Below, piece after piece: positions 11,151 through 18,496 of a stretch of 64,000 nt of DNA. This stretch comes from Desulfovibrionaceae bacterium (lineage in GTDB: Bacteria; Desulfobacterota; Desulfovibrionia; Desulfovibrionales; Desulfovibrionaceae), in the NCBI GenBank assembly GCA_015709315.1, contig JACCQI010000009.1, positions 1 to 64,000 of the forward strand, in the 5' to 3' direction. The translations under genes and the position numbers were made by a program. Position 1 is the stretch's first letter; each line of letters opens with the position of its first letter. The notes beneath the pieces are model-generated. The model had not been told where the DNA came from and ran no database searches. It worked only from the letters and a program-made list of their open reading frames with translations.

Positions 11151-12368
11151 TCAAGCCGACGGTCCGTCCAGCCCGGCCAGCACCGTGTCCAGCGTCGCCA
11201 TGAAGGCGGAGATGTCCGACTTCTCGATGGTCAGAGGCGGCACCAGGCGCAGGATTTTGCCCTGGGTCAGGTTGCAGACGATCCGCTTGTCGAGCAGCCC
11301 CTTCCAGACGTCCTTGCCGTCGATGGCGAGTTCGATGCCGAAGAGCAAGCCAAGCCCGCGCGTACCGGCTATCTTGTCGGGATGCTTCGCTTTCAGCTTT
11401 TCAGCTTCTTGCCTGGCAAAGGCTCCCATATCCCTGGCGCGGCCTGCCATGTCCTCTTCAACCATGATGTCCAGGACCTTGGCGGCCACGGCGGACACCA
11501 CGGCCCCGCCGCCGAAAGTGGTGGCGTGCGATCCGGGGCCGAACCCCTTGGCCGTTTCGTTCGAGCACAGAACCGCGCCCATGGGAAGGCCGTTGGCCAG
11601 CGCCTTGGCCGAAGTGAAGATGTCCGGGGTGATGCCGTAGTGCTGGTGCGCCCAGAACCGGCCGGTGCGGCACAGCCCGGACTGGACCTCGTCCACGATG
11701 AGCAGGATGTTGTTTTCCTTGCACAAGGCCACGATGTCGTTGACGTAGTCGGTGGGCAGGGGGCGCACGCCGCCCTCGCCCTGGACCATTTCGACCATGA
11801 CGGCCGCGGTCTTGGCGTTGATGGCTCCGCGCAACGCATTGACGTTGCCGAAAGGCACGGTCACGAACCCCTCGGGCAGGGGGCTGAAGCCGTCCTTGAT
11901 CGGGCCTTGCTGGCCGGTGGCGGTCAGCGTGGACAACGTCCTGCCGTGAAAGGACTTTTCCAGCGTGATGATTTCAAACCTGTCTTTGTTCCGCACCCGG
12001 CGCATGTACCGGCGGGCGAGCTTGATGGCTCCCTCGTTGGCCTCGGCCCCGGAGTTGCAGAAAAAGACCTTGTCCGCCGCGCAGGTGGCAAGCAACTTTT
12101 CGGCCAGGTCGAGCTGCGGCTCCTGGTAGAAGAGGTTGGAGACATGCACCATCTTGCGCGCCTGCTCGGCCATGACGTCCGCCAGGTCTTCCCGGCTGTG
12201 GCCCAGGCTGCACACGGCGATGCCGGCCAGGAAATCGAGGTATTCATTGCCGTCCAGGTCGTAGAGCCTGCATCCCTTGGCCTTGGAAACGGCCAGGGGA
12301 TACCGCCCGTAGGTGTTGCAAAGGAGTGAGGATTCCCGTTCCTTTATCGCATTGAATTTATTGCTCAT
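11151..12368 (-). CDS. argD: Acetylornithine/succinylornithine aminotransferase
   Basis: PLP-dependent class III aminotransferase of arginine synthesis, 405 residues. NSGAEANE is at 105-112, DEVQSGLCRTG at 226-236, and the PLP lysine at Lys255 in SAKALANG. Such enzymes can also act on N-succinyl-diaminopimelate, but this genome segment encodes DapL for lysine synthesis. It starts 9 nt after dut. Confidence 0.93.
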   Translation of the reverse strand: MSNKFNAIKERESSLLCNTYGRYPLAVSKAKGCRLYDLDGNEYLDFLAGIAVCSLGHSREDLADVMAEQARKMVHVSNLFYQEPQLDLAEKLLATCAADKVFFCNSGAEANEGAIKLARRYMRRVRNKDRFEIITLEKSFHGRTLSTLTATGQQGPIKDGFSPLPEGFVTVPFGNVNALRGAINAKTAAVMVEMVQGEGGVRPLPTDYVNDIVALCKENNILLIVDEVQSGLCRTGRFWAHQHYGITPDIFTSAKALANGLPMGAVLCSNETAKGFGPGSHATTFGGGAVVSAVAAKVLDIMVEEDMAGRARDMGAFARQEAEKLKAKHPDKIAGTRGLGLLFGIELAIDGKDVWKGLLDKRIVCNLTQGKILRLVPPLTIEKSDISAFMATLDTVLAGLDGPSA

Positions 12369-12377
12369 TGTGTACTC

Positions 12378-12836
12378 TTAGAGTTTTCCCGTGGACCCGA
12401 AGCCTCCGGCTCCACGGTCGGTGCCGCCGAGTTCCTCCACCTTGAGGATTTCGGCCTGAAATACGGGCATGAAGACGAGTTGGGCTATACGCTGCCCGCG
12501 CGCGATTCGTCGCACCTTGTCCGAGGTGTTGAGCAGGGATACCTTGATCTCGCCCCGGTAGTCGGGGTCGATGACGCCCACGCCCTGGCTGACGGTCAGG
12601 CCGTCCTTGGTGCCCAGCCCGCTGCGGGAAAAAACATACCCGGCGATGGACGGCTCAAGGACTTCGATGGCCACCCCGGCGGGAAAGGCGTGCTTCTGGC
12701 CGGGCGCGATCTCGACAAAATCCTGGTCGATGCACGCGCGCAGGTCCAGGCCCGCTGAATGGCCGGTGGCATAGGCAAGCTCATGCTCGTCCCACACGGG
12801 GTGCATGAATTTCATCTTCACATTAATCCTGTTCAT
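12378..12836 (-). CDS. dut: dUTP diphosphatase
   Basis: Trimeric dUTPase of 152 residues. All five motifs are present: AGLDLRA (28-34), SRSGL (70-74), GVIDPDYRGEI (87-97), RGQRIAQLV (113-121) and RGAGGFGSTG (141-150). The start at 12836 is chosen for its AGGAAG ribosome binding site and normal length; an in-frame extension upstream overlaps the promoter. It is the first gene of the dut-argD unit. Confidence 0.96.
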   Translation of the reverse strand: MNRINVKMKFMHPVWDEHELAYATGHSAGLDLRACIDQDFVEIAPGQKHAFPAGVAIEVLEPSIAGYVFSRSGLGTKDGLTVSQGVGVIDPDYRGEIKVSLLNTSDKVRRIARGQRIAQLVFMPVFQAEILKVEELGGTDRGAGGFGSTGKL

Positions 12837-12864
12837 GTATCTTCCTTTTTTGAGCGGTTGGTTG

Positions 12865-12893
12865 TTTATGTTCGCATTGCGGACGGCTGTCAA
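12865..12893 (-). promoter_or_regulatory. Promoter of dut-argD
   Basis: A perfect TTGACA (-35, 12893-12888) is followed after exactly 17 nt by CATAAA (-10, 12870-12865, 4 of 6 matches), about 30 nt before the dut start. Confidence 0.6.
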
Positions 12894-12897
12894 TCAA

Positions 12898-12936
12898 CCA
12901 AGAAAAAGAGGTGCCGGACACGCGGACCGGCACCTC
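12898..12936 (-). terminator. Terminator after the sodium symporter gene
   Basis: A 10-bp perfect stem (12908-12917 with 12927-12936, loop nine) has an A-rich left flank that becomes a U-tract on the minus strand. It separates the symporter operon from dut-argD. Confidence 0.85.
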
Positions 12937-12960
12937 ATTGTTTCTTTTAATAACGGTATG

Positions 12961-14568
12961 TTAGCATAACCCTTCCCAGCACAGGTCCAGATGTTTCTGC
13001 TCCATGCGTCGGGTGGCCAGGCTGACGCCCACGGCCAGGGCCATGGACACGGGCAGGGCGACCACGTTGGGGTCCACGTACTGCAACAGCCAGGGCCAGG
13101 ACATGGGCGCGGCATCGGCCACCAGGGTGGTCTTGCCGAAGACGGCTTGGCACAGGCCGATGTAGTCGGCTTCCTTCACATGCACGAAAAGCAGCCAGAA
13201 CATGGAGAAGACGAACCCGCCGACCATGGATATCTTGGCCGCGATTTTGGTCATGCCCTTCCAGTACAGGCCGAGCACGTAGATGGGCAAAAACGAGGCC
13301 GCGCACAGGCCGAAGAAGAAGGCCGTGGCCCTGGCGATGACGCCGCCGGGCAAAAGCCAGGCCCAGGCCAGGGTGGCGATGATGGCGATGGTCACGCCCA
13401 GCCGGTTGAGCTTCATGGAAGAACCGCTGTTCCCGATCTTCACGTGTTGCTCCAGGAAGTCGCGGGAAAGCGAGGTGCCGCCCACGTGGTACTGGGAACT
13501 CATGGTCGACATCGCCGCCGCGAACATGGCCACCAGGAACAAGCCGGAGAACCAGCCCGGCATGAAGGAATCAATGTAGGTGGGAATGATCTTGTCCAGG
13601 TTGCCCTTGGCTATGCTGATGGCGATCTCGCCGAATTTCTGGAAGAAAACCACGTTGGACAGGGCCCCGACCATGAAGGCGACGCCGGTCATGAACAGGA
13701 TGAAGATGCCGCCGATGGCCACGGCGCGGTTCAATTCGCGGTCGCTGGGGACGGTCATGAACCGGATGGCGAGCTGGGGCTGGGCCAGGACGCCGATGCC
13801 CACGCCGTAGATGACGGTCGTGTAGATGGTCAGCCCGAGCGGGGATTGGATGTCTGGGCCGGTGGTCCAGCCGGTCACGCCGCCCTTGAGCATTTTTTCA
13901 GGCATCAGGGCCGCCATGTCGGTGAGCGCCTGGTGCGCGTCGGTGATGCCGCCCAACATGTAGTAGGTGGTGACGATCAGGATGAGCATCATGATGGTCA
14001 TGATGGAACCCTGGAACGCATCGGTGTACATGACCGCCCTGAGTCCGCCGGTGACCACGTACAAGGCCACGATGACGGTGACGATCAAAAGCCACGCCTC
14101 GTAACTGATGCCCGGGAAGGCCACTTCGAGCATCCGGCAGATGCCGATGAGAACGGCCGAGGCATAGACCGGGATGAAGACGAAGATGACCACGCCCGCG
14201 AACTGCTGGATGAATTTCGACTTGTAGCGCCTGCCCAGGAGTTCCGGGAAGGTGTGGGTGTTGAGCGCCAGCCCCATGCGCCGGGTCCGCTTACCGAAAA
14301 AGACCATGGCCACGAAGATGCCCACGAAGATTGTCAGGAAGGTCAGCCAGAGCAGAGAGGTGCCGAACAGCCCGGCGGCCCCGCCAAAGCCGATGATGGC
14401 CGAGGTCGAAATGAAGGTCGCCCCGTAGGACATGGCCAGGACGAACGGGTTCATGGCTCGCCCGGCAAGCATGTAGTCAGTTGATTCCTTTGTTCTTTTC
14501 CAAGCTTTGTAGCCAAGATAGAAAATTACGCCGAGATACAGGAGGACGCCGAGGATTTTGCCTTCCAT
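12961..14568 (-). CDS. Sodium:solute symporter (SSS family)
   Basis: Inner-membrane transporter of 535 residues and about 13 helices. SSS-family hallmarks include SYGATFISTSAIIGFGGAAG in helix 2, the GGLRAVMYTD segment, and AMSTMSSQYHVGGTSLSRDF near residue 355, which corresponds to the sodium-site region. The ATG follows directly on the stop of a 44-codon accessory gene. Family members carry amino acids, acetate, pantothenate or sugars, so homology alone does not name the substrate. The Phe-rich leader upstream argues for phenylalanine or another aromatic compound; that step is inference. Confidence 0.92.
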   Translation of the reverse strand: MEGKILGVLLYLGVIFYLGYKAWKRTKESTDYMLAGRAMNPFVLAMSYGATFISTSAIIGFGGAAGLFGTSLLWLTFLTIFVGIFVAMVFFGKRTRRMGLALNTHTFPELLGRRYKSKFIQQFAGVVIFVFIPVYASAVLIGICRMLEVAFPGISYEAWLLIVTVIVALYVVTGGLRAVMYTDAFQGSIMTIMMLILIVTTYYMLGGITDAHQALTDMAALMPEKMLKGGVTGWTTGPDIQSPLGLTIYTTVIYGVGIGVLAQPQLAIRFMTVPSDRELNRAVAIGGIFILFMTGVAFMVGALSNVVFFQKFGEIAISIAKGNLDKIIPTYIDSFMPGWFSGLFLVAMFAAAMSTMSSQYHVGGTSLSRDFLEQHVKIGNSGSSMKLNRLGVTIAIIATLAWAWLLPGGVIARATAFFFGLCAASFLPIYVLGLYWKGMTKIAAKISMVGGFVFSMFWLLFVHVKEADYIGLCQAVFGKTTLVADAAPMSWPWLLQYVDPNVVALPVSMALAVGVSLATRRMEQKHLDLCWEGLC

Positions 14569-14703
14569 CTACGCATCCTCCCCCGGTTTTTTGTTCCCGG
14601 TTTCATTCCACTTCACAATTCCGTAAACCACGCACAGGATGGTCGAGGCGATACTCAGCCAAAAGGCCAGAGCAATCTCGACGCTGCCAAAACCCAACAT
14701 CAT
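14569..14703 (-). CDS. Symporter small accessory protein, 44 residues
   Basis: A frame of 44 codons whose TAG touches the ATG of the symporter. It encodes one hydrophobic helix (about residues 9-30, EIALAFWLSIASTILCVVYG) followed by a KWNETGNKKP-type hydrophilic tail. Single-helix peptides next to SSS transporters form a recognised accessory family. A GAGGGG ribosome binding site precedes two consecutive ATGs (14703 and 14700). It was probably missed in many annotations because of its size. Confidence 0.85.
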   Translation of the reverse strand: MMLGFGSVEIALAFWLSIASTILCVVYGIVKWNETGNKKPGEDA

Positions 14704-14748
14704 ACCCATACCCCTCTTTGTTTCGGCCCCGACAAGCCCTGGCCCGCC

Positions 14749-14786
14749 AAAAGAAAAGGGCCGTAAGCTTGTCGCCTACGGCCCTT
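14749..14786 (-). terminator. Attenuator terminator in the symporter leader
   Basis: A 10-bp perfect stem (14786-14777 with 14765-14756, loop eleven) is followed on the minus strand by UUUUCUUUU, so it has intrinsic terminator form. It stands between the Phe-rich leader frame and the accessory gene, with no other gene upstream to terminate. Its 5-prime arm can instead pair with leader codons 23-25. Confidence 0.8.
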
Positions 14787-14809
14787 GTTTGGTTGCAATC
14801 AGCTAAACG

Positions 14810-14899
14810 TCAGTCGCACACCCCAAGACCGCAGGCGCTTCTAAAAAAGCGAAAGCCGAAAAAGGAAAAGAAGCCGAAGCGGTTCTGGTTGGTGATCAT
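14810..14899 (-). CDS. Phenylalanine-rich leader peptide, 29 codons
   Basis: ATG at 14899-14897, TGA at 14812-14810. Residues 8, 10, 11, 13, 14, 16, 18 and 19 are all Phe: eight in twelve codons, using both TTC and TTT. Other residues are Arg, Gly and Ser, and the tail contains Cys-Gly-Leu at 23-25. No membrane or signal logic explains this composition, whereas leader peptides of Phe-regulated operons look like this. There is no strong ribosome binding site, and the predicted transcript start nearly coincides with the ATG, so translation may be leaderless. A short antiterminator and a terminator follow. Confidence 0.75.
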   Translation of the reverse strand: MITNQNRFGFFSFFGFRFFRSACGLGVCD

Positions 14900-14906
14900 G
14901 GAATAG

Positions 14907-14935
14907 CTCATATTCGTAACCGCATAAAATGTCAA
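14907..14935 (-). promoter_or_regulatory. Promoter of the leader-accessory-symporter operon
   Basis: Consensus TTGACA (-35, 14935-14930), 17-nt spacer, and TATGAG (-10, 14912-14907, 4 of 6). The -10 box ends 7 nt before the leader ATG, so transcription should begin within or immediately before that ATG. Confidence 0.7.
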
Positions 14936-15084
14936 GCATGGCGCTGTTACTGGCTTTTGGCGGAGTGCGGCGGGGCAAAAGGAGGACCGATACGTTTTCC
15001 GTATGGCTTGATATCCTTTGCAATTATTTACAAAATCAATGAAATCAGATGGTTAAAAGTTTTCTTGACAGGTATTATAGAGTT

Positions 15085-15130
15085 GTGGTTTGGTGACTGC
15101 CCCTCAGAATTCAGGCAGACTTCCTGAATT
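15085..15130 (+). promoter_or_regulatory. Possible sigma-54 promoter and hairpin upstream of glutamate synthase
   Basis: A GG-N10-GC arrangement (GG 15087-15088, GC 15099-15100) fits -24/-12 spacing, but the flanking bases match only partly. It is followed by an 8-bp perfect inverted repeat (15108-15115 with 15123-15130). A TTGACA at 15065-15070 has no good -10 partner. The whole 14936-15210 gap holds no gene that I can support. Confidence 0.3.
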
Positions 15131-15155
15131 GTGAAATATACGGAAGCCCTTGCGG

Positions 15156-15183
15156 GTCATCCTCATTGCGAGATGACTTTTTT
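15156..15183 (+). terminator. Possible attenuator hairpin before glutamate synthase
   Basis: GTCAT pairs with ATGAC (15156-15160 with 15173-15177), extended by CTC/GAG after a one-base bulge, and is directly followed by T6 (15178-15183). It lies about 27 nt before the first glutamate synthase start. The stem is short, so this is tentative. Confidence 0.4.
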
Positions 15184-15210
15184 GGCAACAAACGAAAGAG
15201 GTTACCTGTC

Positions 15211-16740
15211 TTGCTTTTTCAGCCCATCAACAAGAACTACCATGAGTTCTGTATTGACCGGGACCCGGACCTGTGCATCAACTGCAAGGTCTGCGTCCGC
15301 CAATGCTCGTACGAGGCTCACTACTGGGATGAAACCCGGCAAAAGGTCATGCACGACAACACCAAGTGCGTGGGCTGCCACCGCTGCGAGGCCCTGTGCC
15401 CCACGTCGGCGTTGAACATCCGCAACAAGCCTTCGGATTTTCGGACCAACAACCTGTGGCGTCCCGTGTTCCTCCAGAACATCTACAAACAGGCGGACAC
15501 CGGCGGCGTACTCCTGGCGGGCATGGGTTCCCCGGTGGACATCCCGGTCTACTGGGACCGCATGTTGCTCGACGCCTCCCAGGTGACCAACCCGTCCATC
15601 GACCCCCTGCGCGAGCCCATGGAACTCAAGACCTTCCTGGGTGCCAAGCCGCGCAAGCTCGACTTTTCGGTGAACAAAAAGACCGGCAAGGCCAAGCTGA
15701 AGACCAAGCTCACCCCGCAGCTCGAACTGGACGTGCCCATCATGTTCGCGGCCATGAGCTTCGGGGCCATCAACTTCAACCTGCATCGGGCCATGGCGCG
15801 CGCGGCCACCGAAACCGGCACCTTCTACAACACCGGCGAGGGCGGCCTGCACAAGTCCTTATATAAATACGGCGACCACACCATCGTCCAGGTGGCCTCG
15901 GGCCGTTTCGGCGTGCATCGGGACTACCTCAAGGCGGGCGCGGCCATCGAGATCAAGGTGGGGCAGGGCGCCAAGCCCGGCATCGGCGGCCATCTGCCCG
16001 GCGAAAAGATCAACGACAAGGTGTCCGAGACGCGCATGGTCCCCATCGGGTCCGACGCCATCTCGCCCGCGCCCCACCACGACATCTACTCCATCGAGGA
16101 CCTGCTCCAGCTCATCTACGCGCTGAAGGAGGCCAGCGAGTACAAGTCCCCGGTTTCGGTCAAGATCGCGGCCGTTCACAACGTGGCCGCCATCGCCTCG
16201 GGCATTGCCAGGGCGGGCGCGGACATCATTACCATCGACGGCATGCGCGGCGGCACGGGCGCGGCCCCGGCCATGATCCGCGACAACGTGGGCATCCCCA
16301 TCGAGCTGGCGCTCTCCCAGGTGGACCAGCGGCTGCGCGACGAGGGCATCCGCAACAATGTGTCCGTGGTCGCGGCGGGCGGCATCCGCTGTTCCGGCGA
16401 CGTGATCAAGGCCATCGCGCTGGGGGCCGACGCCGTGTACATCGGCACGGCCACGCTCATCGCCGTGGGCTGTACCATCTGCGGCCGCTGCTACACCGGC
16501 AAATGCCCGTGGGGCATCGCCACCAACGACACCAAGCTTTCCAAGCGCCAGAATCCGGACATCGCGGCCAAGAAACTGGCCAACCTGATCCGCGCCTGGG
16601 GGCATGAGATCGAGGAAATGCTCGGCGGCATGGGACTGAACTCCATCGAGTCTCTGCGCGGCAACCGCGACAAGCTGCGCGGCGTAGGCATTTCCGACAC
16701 CGAACTCGACATTCTCGGCATCAAGCATGCCGGACGCTAG
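15211..16740 (+). CDS. Glutamate synthase core subunit, FMN-binding, with N-terminal ferredoxin domain
   Basis: Synthase (GltB central-domain) subunit of archaeal-type glutamate synthase, about 509 residues. It has two N-terminal 4Fe-4S motifs (CINCKVCVRQC and CVGCHRCEALC), then the FMN barrel with MSFGAINFN, GEGGLHKSLY, GQGAKPGIGGHLPG, TIDGMRGGTGAAP, VVAAGGIRCSGD, and the 3Fe-4S-type cysteines in CTICGRCYTGKCPWG. It makes glutamate from 2-oxoglutarate and ammonia delivered by a separate amidotransferase. Start: TTG at 15211 with an AGAGG site upstream. An ATG at 15166 would add 15 residues but overlaps the hairpin and U-tract. First gene of a five-gene set. Confidence 0.92.
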   Translation: MLFQPINKNYHEFCIDRDPDLCINCKVCVRQCSYEAHYWDETRQKVMHDNTKCVGCHRCEALCPTSALNIRNKPSDFRTNNLWRPVFLQNIYKQADTGGVLLAGMGSPVDIPVYWDRMLLDASQVTNPSIDPLREPMELKTFLGAKPRKLDFSVNKKTGKAKLKTKLTPQLELDVPIMFAAMSFGAINFNLHRAMARAATETGTFYNTGEGGLHKSLYKYGDHTIVQVASGRFGVHRDYLKAGAAIEIKVGQGAKPGIGGHLPGEKINDKVSETRMVPIGSDAISPAPHHDIYSIEDLLQLIYALKEASEYKSPVSVKIAAVHNVAAIASGIARAGADIITIDGMRGGTGAAPAMIRDNVGIPIELALSQVDQRLRDEGIRNNVSVVAAGGIRCSGDVIKAIALGADAVYIGTATLIAVGCTICGRCYTGKCPWGIATNDTKLSKRQNPDIAAKKLANLIRAWGHEIEEMLGGMGLNSIESLRGNRDKLRGVGISDTELDILGIKHAGR

Positions 16741-16749
16741 GAGCAAGCC

Positions 16750-17199
16750 ATGAAACGAGTTTATCCCGACAAGGAATACTGCATCGGCTGCCATCTCTGC
16801 GAGCTGGCCTGCATCACCGCCCATTCCAAGTCCAAGGACCTGATCATCGCCTTCCGCGAGGAACGGCTCAAGGACGGCCTGGACTCCTGCAAAAAGGTCT
16901 TCGAGAAGGGCGACACCTGCGTGGCCATCTCCTGCCGCCACTGCGACGAGCCGTCCTGCGTGGCCGCCTGCATCTCCGGCGGGCTGCACAAGGACCCCGA
17001 GACCGGCCGCACCGTGTACGACCGCAACAAGTGCGTGGGCTGCTGGTCCTGCCTCATGGCCTGTCCCTACGGGGCGATAAAACGGCATCCGACCGAGAGC
17101 AAGATCATCAAGTGCGACCTGTGCGAGGGCCGCGAGGAAGGCCCGGCCTGTGTCCAGGCCTGCCCCAACGGTGCGTTGAAATTCGAAGAGCGGGACTAG
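16750..17199 (+). CDS. 4Fe-4S ferredoxin subunit of glutamate synthase
   Basis: Polyferredoxin of 149 residues in the HycB/DmsB-like class. Four cysteine groups are visible: CIGCHLCELAC, CRHCDEPSCVAAC, CVGCWSCLMAC and CDLCEGREEGPACVQAC, enough for up to four 4Fe-4S clusters. It lies 9 nt after the synthase core and 10 nt before the flavoprotein, so it most likely shuttles electrons between them. Confidence 0.9.
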   Translation: MKRVYPDKEYCIGCHLCELACITAHSKSKDLIIAFREERLKDGLDSCKKVFEKGDTCVAISCRHCDEPSCVAACISGGLHKDPETGRTVYDRNKCVGCWSCLMACPYGAIKRHPTESKIIKCDLCEGREEGPACVQACPNGALKFEERD

Positions 17200-17209
17200 G
17201 GAGGCATCC

Positions 17210-18496
17210 ATGAAATACGTCATCATCGGCAACGGCATCGCCTCCATCGGGGCCATCGAGGGCATCCGCAAGGTCGATGCCGAGAACGAGATACTGGTCA
17301 TCGGGGCCGAGGATTCCCCGGCCTACGGCCGTCCGCTCATCTCCTACCTGCTGGCGGGCAAGATCGGCCCGGAGCGGCTGGCCCTGCGTCCCCAGGAATT
17401 CTACGAGAAGAGCAACGTCTCCCTGAAGCTGGGCACCCGCGTCATCGCCATCGACACCAAGAAAAAGATCGTGGCCACGGACAAGGGCGAAACTCTCGAA
17501 TATGAAAACCTGCTCATCGCCACGGGCGGCATCCCGTTCACCCCGCCCATCCCCGGCTCCGACGGCGCGGACGTCTATAACTTCACCAACCTGGCCCACG
17601 CCCAGACGCTCATCTCCAAGGCCAAGGAAATAAAGAGGGCCGTGGTCATCGGCGGCGGCCTCATCGGCCTCAAGGCGGGCGAATCCCTGTTCGATCGGGG
17701 CGTGGAAGTGACCATCCTGGAACTGTCCCCGCGCATCCTGAGCCTGGCCTTTGACGAGAACGCCGCCTCCCTGGCGGGAACCCGCCTGGAAGAGGTGGGC
17801 CTGCATGTGCGCTGCGGCGTGTCCGCCAAGGAAATCCAGCGCGACGCCGAGGGCAGCCTCAAGGGCGTCCATCTGACCGATGGCGACTTCCTCCAGTGCG
17901 ACGTGGTGGTCATCGCCATCGGCGTGGTCCCCAACTACGACCTGGCCAAAAAGTCCGGCATCGGCGTGGATCGCGGCATCAAGGTGGACGACCACATGCG
18001 GACCACGGCGGAAGGCGTGTTCGCGGCGGGCGACGTGGCCCAGGCCAGGGACCTGCTGTTCCGCGAGGACCGGGTCATCCCCATCTGGACCAATGCCTAC
18101 AACCAGGGATTCTGCGCTGGCAAGAACATGGCGGGCAGGGACATCACCTTCACCGGCTCCCTGGCCATGAATTCCATTTCCTTTTACGGCCTGCCCACCA
18201 TCTCCGTGGGCACGGTCAACCCGCCGGAGGACGACGACGCCTACGAAGTGGCCGCCTTCCTGGATGAAAAGAAGCGGAGCTACCGCAAGCTGGTGTTCCA
18301 CAACGACCACCTGGTGGGCTACGTGCTGGTGGGCGACATCGACATGGCGGGCATGTACACCGCCTTCGTCAAATTCCAGATGCCCGTTCCCGAGGACGCC
18401 AAGAAGCAGATCCTGGCGGGCGAGCCGGACGTGCTCATGTGGCCCGACGACTTCTTCAAGGACACCTGGAACCCCGGCGTGGTGGAACCCGACTAA
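17210..18496 (+). CDS. NAD(P)/FAD-dependent oxidoreductase of the glutamate synthase set
   Basis: Two-dinucleotide-fold flavoprotein of 428 residues. FAD motif IIGNGIASIGAIEGI is near residues 5-19, the second fold is AVVIGGGLIGLKAGE (about 143-157), and the FAD ribityl motif is VFAAGDVA. It resembles the NirB/rubredoxin-reductase class more than classical GltD. From its position it should take electrons from NAD(P)H and pass them through the ferredoxin subunit to the synthase; this role is inferred from context. Confidence 0.88.
   Translation: MKYVIIGNGIASIGAIEGIRKVDAENEILVIGAEDSPAYGRPLISYLLAGKIGPERLALRPQEFYEKSNVSLKLGTRVIAIDTKKKIVATDKGETLEYENLLIATGGIPFTPPIPGSDGADVYNFTNLAHAQTLISKAKEIKRAVVIGGGLIGLKAGESLFDRGVEVTILELSPRILSLAFDENAASLAGTRLEEVGLHVRCGVSAKEIQRDAEGSLKGVHLTDGDFLQCDVVVIAIGVVPNYDLAKKSGIGVDRGIKVDDHMRTTAEGVFAAGDVAQARDLLFREDRVIPIWTNAYNQGFCAGKNMAGRDITFTGSLAMNSISFYGLPTISVGTVNPPEDDDAYEVAAFLDEKKRSYRKLVFHNDHLVGYVLVGDIDMAGMYTAFVKFQMPVPEDAKKQILAGEPDVLMWPDDFFKDTWNPGVVEPD

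Follow-up and report, generated by a model that had tools for sequence, protein, structure and literature searches.

A candidate phenylalanine attenuator upstream of a sodium:solute symporter in Desulfovibrionaceae, with relatives before aromatic biosynthesis genes

A ribosome-mediated transcription attenuator of the trp/phe type probably controls the genes for a small accessory protein and a sodium:solute symporter (SSS) in the Desulfovibrionaceae DNA analyzed here. We put the probability of this reading at roughly 0.87, judged from sequence comparison. The window, meaning the whole stretch of 64,000 nucleotides, carries these elements on its minus strand. A first-pass annotation had already proposed the logic of trp and phe attenuation attached to an SSS transporter, and the leader, the terminator, and the antiterminator that this logic calls for are present, conserved, and covarying. 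The features are as follows.

14907..14935, minus strand: promoter-like site TTGACA-17-TATGAG, whose -10 ends 7 nt before the leader AUG
14810..14899, minus strand: leader peptide ORF of 29 codons with eight Phe codons, predicted leaderless
14879..14883, minus strand: region 1, ACCGC, possible protector strand for region 2, pairing with GCGGU
14825..14837, minus strand: region 2, antiterminator 5' strand, inside the leader ORF right after the last Phe codon
14774..14786, minus strand: region 3, terminator 5' arm, with 14773-14785 as the antiterminator 3' strand
14756..14768, minus strand: region 4, terminator 3' arm, followed by the U tract 14755-14749
14569..14709, minus strand: symporter small accessory protein, 46 aa (NCBIfam NF045580, 58.7 bits, cut-off 35)
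12961..14568, minus strand: sodium:solute symporter (SSS), 535 aa (Pfam PF00474, 182.5 bits, residues 32-451)

The minus-strand frame 14899-14810 translates to MITNQNRFGFFSFFGFRFFRSACGLGVCD followed by the stop codon, with Phe at positions 8, 10, 11, 13, 14, 16, 18, and 19, exactly as the annotation had read it. An attenuator leader is a short ORF rich in codons for the sensed amino acid; here eight of 29 codons specify Phe, and the layout recurs at 64 loci. When every frame was taken from its first start codon and ORFs of 12-60 aa with at least six Phe in 12 residues were collected, the leader was the sole one on both strands of the 64-kb window, and no comparable ORF appeared in 60 dinucleotide-preserving shuffles of the window.

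The symporter was searched for in 149 family genomes, 35 of which had a match, and in 36 genomes of Pseudodesulfovibrio, the genus of the window, of which 32 had one. The search for the accessory protein covered 288 family genomes, with matches in 66, and 297 phylum genomes, with matches in 29, the window's own among them. Family genomes beyond the 149 were covered through the accessory protein only, and symporters without it could be missed there. The leader layout was found at 64 loci in four genera of one family, 58 with Phe leaders and six with Tyr leaders, and every one of them has the terminator and the antiterminator duplex. Leaders occur in 31/31 examinable Pseudodesulfovibrio genomes, 13/13 genomes of g7, and 3/3 of g13, while genus g21 contributes 17 leader loci in 10 genomes; the 32nd genus genome was left out because its locus (L055) ends at a contig edge. 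Each Pseudodesulfovibrio leader has 6-12 Phe codons (31/31 examinable symporter-bearing genomes). The frame and its Phe codons, whose retention in close relatives the annotation had named as a check, are thus kept in all examinable genus genomes that have this symporter and in three more genera. The leader was not found in 11 family loci outside the leader clade, nor in 29 loci of other families (L105-L133). Weak frames of other residues with a hairpin were seen in five of the 29 (Thr in three, Leu in one, Trp in one, none Phe or Tyr), in a scan that could miss leaders of other kinds. Two loci with the accessory gene but without this symporter (L100, L134) were left out of all counts.

In a symporter tree built by a quick method, the leaders all fall in one clade of 64 rows (SH-aLRT 91), of which 57 have Phe leaders, six have Tyr leaders, and one has none; outside it, 0/38 rows have a leader. 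The Phe count is 57 rather than 58 because L093 was left out, one of three short or weak symporter stretches omitted (with L115 and L130) along with identical proteins, the overlapping shorter loci L075-L104, L037, and rows cut by contig ends. The one row without a leader inside the clade is the second gene of a tandem in genome G021 (L017 and L059), where two symporters lie about 117 nt apart behind one leader and the second has neither a leader nor a detected accessory gene.

Phe conservation was read codon by codon in the 29-residue genus leaders with RFF at 17-19 (24 of the 64 loci, 22 distinct). Columns 17-19 are fixed by this choice of rows, and conservation was therefore read only from the other columns. 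Phe is kept in 21-22 of the 22 leaders at columns 10, 11, 13, 14, and 16, and both TTT and TTC are used at four of these five columns; columns 2-5, 9, and 15 vary in residue. The synonymous variation at Phe codons fits translation of the leader, with a ribosome-binding site that is absent or weak. We infer that the leader is translated and that Phe-tRNA is sensed.

The terminator stem (14786-14756), which lies between the leader and the structural gene and covaries, has 13 pairs and a U tail (-24.5 kcal/mol). The annotation had the U tail right and counted 10 bp, which has to be raised to 13. The antiterminator pairs 14837-14825 with 14785-14773 in 13 contiguous pairs, three of them G-U (duplex -24.9 kcal/mol); the pairing and its three G-U pairs had been proposed before, with a run of only nine pairs that is now extended. 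The two structures exclude each other, and the antiterminator 5' strand follows the regulatory codons, with region 2 starting inside the leader at 64/64 loci.

Both stems covary. On 63 distinct sequences and 500 shuffles, in a kind of test that kinship among the sequences inflates, the terminator had eight pairs changed on both sides, in 67 cells (shuffled mean 19.1), and the antiterminator five such pairs, in 36 cells (shuffled mean 16.3); 0/500 shuffles were as high in either case, in line with the compensating changes that the annotation had named as a check for both stems. Other measures were not unusual, namely the terminator pair count (8 vs 6.4, 73/500) and pair types (18 vs 17.9, 317/500) and the antiterminator pair types (19 vs 17.3, 51/500). 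Sliding the antiterminator by -1 gave 39 both-sides-changed cells against 36 in register, with paired percentage and score not higher. At alignment column 142 in arm 3, a standard pair with region 2 is present in 61/63 sequences and the terminator is mismatched in 30/63.

These comparisons bear on whether the Phe-rich frame and the hairpin came together by chance, the hairpin ending an upstream transcript and the frame being untranslated. The small size of the frame is all that speaks for such a coincidence, which we consider extremely improbable. The frame is unique in the window and absent from the 60 shuffles, the 64 loci keep it together with promoter spacing, terminator, and antiterminator, and Phe is conserved codon by codon. 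The upstream gene (15166-16740) runs in the opposite direction, and the minus-strand frames there (15202-15852 and 15859-17301) have no family match in the profile libraries searched, so that no upstream transcript to be ended is evident. A chance frame beside an unrelated terminator was therefore rejected on the shuffles, the 64-locus conservation, and the covariation. The upstream gene, on the plus strand, encodes a glutamate-synthase-like protein with 4Fe-4S domains and is transcribed away from the leader.

A promoter-like site that the annotation had not listed lies just before the leader, with TTGACA at 14935-14930, a 17-nt gap, and TATGAG at 14912-14907. An automatic promoter scan omits this site because its rule demands a T ending the -10. 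Transcription usually starts 6-7 nt from the -10, so transcription in the window would begin on the leader AUG or at most 2 nt away. All 64 leader loci have a -35 with at least 5/6 matches to TTGACA and a -10 starting with TA that ends 6-8 nt before an in-frame ATG (6 nt in 24 loci, 7 nt in 31, and 8 nt in nine), in a scan open to any gap from 4 to 9 nt and to in-frame ATGs further upstream; when the upstream bases were shuffled, 0.57 of 64 loci satisfied this rule at gaps of 6-8 nt. When the hexamers were matched more loosely and each locus was given a single fixed ATG, 56/64 had a gap of 6-9 nt. The longest AGGAGG substring before the leader ATG is shorter than 3 in 38 loci, 3 in 18, and 4 in eight; at the accessory gene, a length of 5 or 6 is reached in 39/64. 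Fixed promoter-to-AUG spacing together with weak ribosome-binding sites indicates that the symporter leader mRNA is probably leaderless.

In the proposed mechanism, transcription would begin on or beside the leader AUG, and a ribosome would translate the Phe-rich leader close behind the polymerase. With ample charged Phe-tRNA, this ribosome would move on and cover region 2, regions 3 and 4 would form the terminator, and transcription would end without reaching the accessory and symporter genes. Under Phe-tRNA shortage, it would stall at codons 8-16, region 2 would pair with region 3, and the transporter would be made. Our stall model lets the ribosome shield 14 nt, counted from the start of the A-site codon. 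The antiterminator then has, before arm 4 is made, a mean pair probability of 0.85-0.91 for A sites tested at codons 2-16, 0.68 at codon 18, 0.44 at codon 19, and 0.00 from codon 21 on. This agrees with the earlier proposal that a pause up to about codon 16 would leave region 2 free and that a ribosome at the stop codon would cover it. Stalling at Phe codons 18 or 19, being so close, would partly cover region 2.

At full length, the equilibrium model favors the terminator (at least 0.81 in every state), with the antiterminator at 0.15 or less even with a stalled ribosome. Readthrough would thus have to be kinetic, the antiterminator forming first, as is usually assumed for such switches. With no ribosome, the antiterminator reaches 0.88 before arm 4 is made and the protector stem 1:2 loses to it, which makes the protector role and the untranslated default uncertain. 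The minimum-energy fold of the window RNA contains the ACCGC:GCGGU pairing of region 1, as does the full-length model.

Stalled ribosomes can also protect mRNA, and the leader might act on accessory-gene translation or transcript stability instead of termination. We regard this as very unlikely, given that a U-tailed terminator stands between leader and gene at 64/64 loci and that the alternative stem targets the terminator 5' arm.

In the tandem symporter pairs of six g21 genomes, a Phe leader precedes the first copy, a Tyr leader precedes the second, and both leaders have terminators of their own. In G142, the Phe leader is MNNLTTNFLFAFFGFRGIQACGSVECVQT and the Tyr leader is MNTINRHMNSYFYAYYGYRVLKTCGSVECA. 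Five TTY codons of the Phe leader align with TAY in the Tyr leader within similar flanking sequence, and the Tyr leaders retain one Phe. The six Tyr-leader symporters form one group (SH-aLRT 97), sister to their six Phe-leader partners (99), which is compatible with, but does not prove, one gain of the leader followed by one Phe-to-Tyr switch after tandem duplication. As Tyr replaces most Phe codons in the second copy, its read-out was probably re-specified from Phe to Tyr, and this copy probably imports tyrosine. Specificity is also mixed in places, with Tyr before region 2 in 19 of the 58 Phe leaders and two or more in five.

Exchange of Phe for Tyr codons in otherwise similar leaders fits codon sensing, not ligand binding. 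It therefore argues against another leader-RNA sensor, such as a T-box, an amino-acid riboswitch, or an RNA-binding protein, to which the Phe frame would be secondary. Although the leader could still fold differently, we take a sensor of this kind to be highly improbable. Neither window positions 12000-17000 nor ten related loci gave a match at gathering score to any Rfam family, leader and T-box families included. With E allowed up to 1, the matches were BjrC68 (19.9-23.4 bits against 39), ctRNA_p42d (20.7 against 50), and sR38, the last away from the leader site.

Leaders of this type are not confined to symporters. A covariance model built from the 64 leaders has matches in at least 259 of 288 family genomes at E 0.01, and since 57 of these genomes account for the known symporter leaders, most matches lie elsewhere; weak ones may be bare terminators. 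We read 49 non-symporter loci, comprising 18 from a set of 19 stretches, L177, and the best place in each of 30 of 32 genomes, and left five weak matches in the window genome (E 0.035-0.6) out of the reading. All 49 precede a homologue of 2-amino-3,7-dideoxy-D-threo-hept-6-ulosonate (ADH) synthase, which is the first enzyme of aromatic amino-acid synthesis (family names by profile for two), and so do six further family loci. A 3-dehydroquinate synthase homologue comes next in 39 loci, whose leaders we call operon leaders. Trp codons are found in the sensing segment of 33/39 operon leaders, 0/7 lone-ADH leaders, and 0/64 symporter leaders, and Tyr in 39/39 operon and 2/7 lone-ADH leaders. For these counts, L160 was omitted for want of a terminator under the rule, and L185 and L200, with tandem ADH synthase genes and mixed leaders, were kept apart. 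Because the model was built on Phe-rich leaders, the Phe richness of its matches is partly built in; their Trp content and targets are not. Leader codon content thus appears to track gene role. An SD-like sequence (loose rule) is present in 11/39 operon leaders, and the leaderless layout is not common to all relatives.

The window genome has three strong members, namely the symporter leader and two leaders before ADH synthases.

G000:C23:22081-22216 (L156): leader MHNHTARFFFFFGFFNRNACGLGVR before a lone ADH synthase, Phe-only
G000:C24:20077-20226 (L177): leader MTTATVSNAYFSNFYFWYWYGRARGLGRGVA before ADH and dehydroquinate synthases, Phe/Tyr/Trp

Two ADH synthases under Phe-only and Phe/Tyr/Trp leaders are reminiscent of the DAHP synthases of E. 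coli, which are regulated separately. In D. hydrothermalis, an aldolase gene and a dehydroquinate synthase gene lie in a run with pheA, aroA, tyrA, and trpE (PMC4162548), with which a three-way leader makes sense; the word symporter does not occur in that paper. The symporter leaders are relatives of the putative attenuators before aromatic amino-acid biosynthesis genes in the same genomes.

Similar leaders appear to extend beyond the family. Among 297 genomes of a phylum sample, 52 match the covariance model at E 0.001, 11 of them from the same family. An aromatic-rich frame (at least four F/Y/W in 14) is present in 26 of 29 loci read outside the family. For 20 of these loci the count is 18, whereas four shifted control positions gave 0, 3, 2, and 4, and the opposite strand gave 5. 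Profiles above cut-off identify four out-of-family targets as ADH synthase, DAHP synthase, indolepyruvate oxidoreductase alpha, and, through Pfam PF13458, a periplasmic binding protein whose LivK-like NCBIfam match is below cut-off. An acyl-CoA-ligase-like target is below every cut-off; the targets of L228, L229, L235, L241, and L242, among others, were named by eye only. Phe- or Phe/Tyr-rich leaders stand before an ABC-type periplasmic binding protein at L224 (1501-2896) and L227 (minus strand) by profile and at L228 and L229 by eye. This adds a second kind of transporter under what appears to be an aromatic leader, in other families of Desulfobacterota. Tyr/Phe-rich leaders precede an indolepyruvate ferredoxin oxidoreductase alpha gene at L244 (minus strand, gene 490-2220) and an acyl-CoA-ligase-like protein at L243 (gene 913-2988), and these two might mark aromatic amino acid synthesis from aryl acids. 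L219 and L246, from two genomes of family f16, share a similar Phe/Tyr frame, MITHQSR..F.YFVFSGFIGAPMG, which at L219, the one locus where the gene was seen, precedes a metallo-beta-lactamase-fold protein.

The layout at the symporter is like that of E. coli pheA (with pheL) and trp (with trpL), the classical attenuators, with a leader rich in the sensed residue, an antiterminator strand after the regulatory codons, and a U-tailed terminator. Unlike pheA and trp, which encode gammaproteobacterial biosynthesis enzymes, the target here is a sodium symporter of Desulfovibrionaceae, and the leader is apparently leaderless. Leader ORFs that start with the first base of the transcript also occur in rhizobia (trpL) and in mycobacteria (cysteine-rich ORFs), where they serve other amino acids and genes in other phyla. 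The ilv and thr attenuators sense more than one amino acid, and their mixed regulatory codons have a counterpart in the Phe/Tyr/Trp operon leaders, although here the amino acids are aromatic and the targets are ADH and 3-dehydroquinate synthase homologues. Both pheA and trp are under attenuation (PMC5343134), and one survey describes a possible origin in gammaproteobacteria for the amino-acid attenuation motifs listed in Rfam, most of whose targets are biosynthesis genes (PMC3766115). Among the open-licence papers listed in our literature searches we found neither an SSS transporter with an amino-acid leader peptide, of which the annotation likewise knew none, nor an aromatic attenuator in sulfate reducers. 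The mechanism is of a known kind and well supported by comparison; the symporter target, the probable codon re-specification, and the predicted leaderless layout set this case apart.

We slightly favor a broader reading, in which Desulfobacterota would have a codon-written aromatic regulon based on one re-programmable attenuator. Phe, Tyr, and Trp codons would govern the operon, Phe codons a second first-step enzyme and the symporter, and Tyr codons the duplicated symporter, so that the codons would state the transporter substrates. If true, the change in substrate specificity went with five Phe-to-Tyr codon changes in the leader, and these would be the first phenylalanine and tyrosine importers of the SSS family and the first Tyr-specific peptide attenuator; we know of no earlier example of either. 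For uncharacterized transporters, sequence alone seldom reveals the substrate. The regulatory codons point to a candidate in this case, and the tandem pairs, with one copy under a Phe leader and the other under a Tyr leader, provide an internal test of the prediction. The distribution suggests that amino-acid attenuation is common in Desulfovibrionaceae and probably wider in Desulfobacterota, and that it reaches transporters, with a leaderless start and mixed Phe/Tyr/Trp sensing.

The symporter belongs to the SSS family, with a PF00474 match over the core. PutP and other SSS symporters (PF00474) share this family, and the window symporter is paired with the NF045580 accessory protein. It matched 11 NCBIfam models and reached the cut-off of none; PutP (TIGR02121, equivalog) is the best, with 188.4 of the 515.5 bits demanded. 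Named matches to the window symporter are all from Pseudodesulfovibrio (5/5). We consider it likely that the symporter imports phenylalanine, and the case for an aromatic substrate is strengthened by the tandem paralogues with Phe and Tyr leaders and by the homologous leaders before aromatic biosynthesis genes.

Alternatively, the attenuator may sense Phe-tRNA while the symporter carries an aromatic precursor or product that is needed at Phe shortage, such as phenylacetate, phenylpyruvate, or shikimate. SSS proteins include carboxylate carriers, and the ActP, MctC, and MctP profiles match the symporter weakly. The ligase-like protein and the indolepyruvate oxidoreductase subunit behind Tyr/Phe-rich leaders in the phylum could also join aryl acids to amino acids. 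However, the best curated profile is a proline symporter, though far below its cut-off, and none of the longest frames flanking the symporter at 21 loci, inspected by eye, was recognized as an aryl-acid enzyme. We therefore hold a precursor carrier to be possible but doubtful and prefer phenylalanine itself as the substrate.

Flanking genes were also considered as a guide to the substrate and set aside, as no neighbour was common across genera in the same 21 loci (longest flanking frames, by eye). The substrate pocket was sought in solved structures as well, with 16 distinct sequences; these are distant SSS relatives, such as SGLT1 and a bacterial sodium/glucose transporter, and no pocket was assigned for that reason. 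Comparison of five Phe-leader with six Tyr-leader paralogues from a single genus gave 32 alignment columns in which each set is fixed for a different state, in one case a gap. Positions 294, 295, and 298 of the window protein form a cluster, which with the changes at 422 and 425 may serve as substrate leads only. Closely after the symporter on the same strand (11151-12893, minus) lie dUTPase and acetylornithine-transaminase-like (argD-like) genes. They might be co-transcribed with the symporter and, if so, would share the leader control without an aromatic role.
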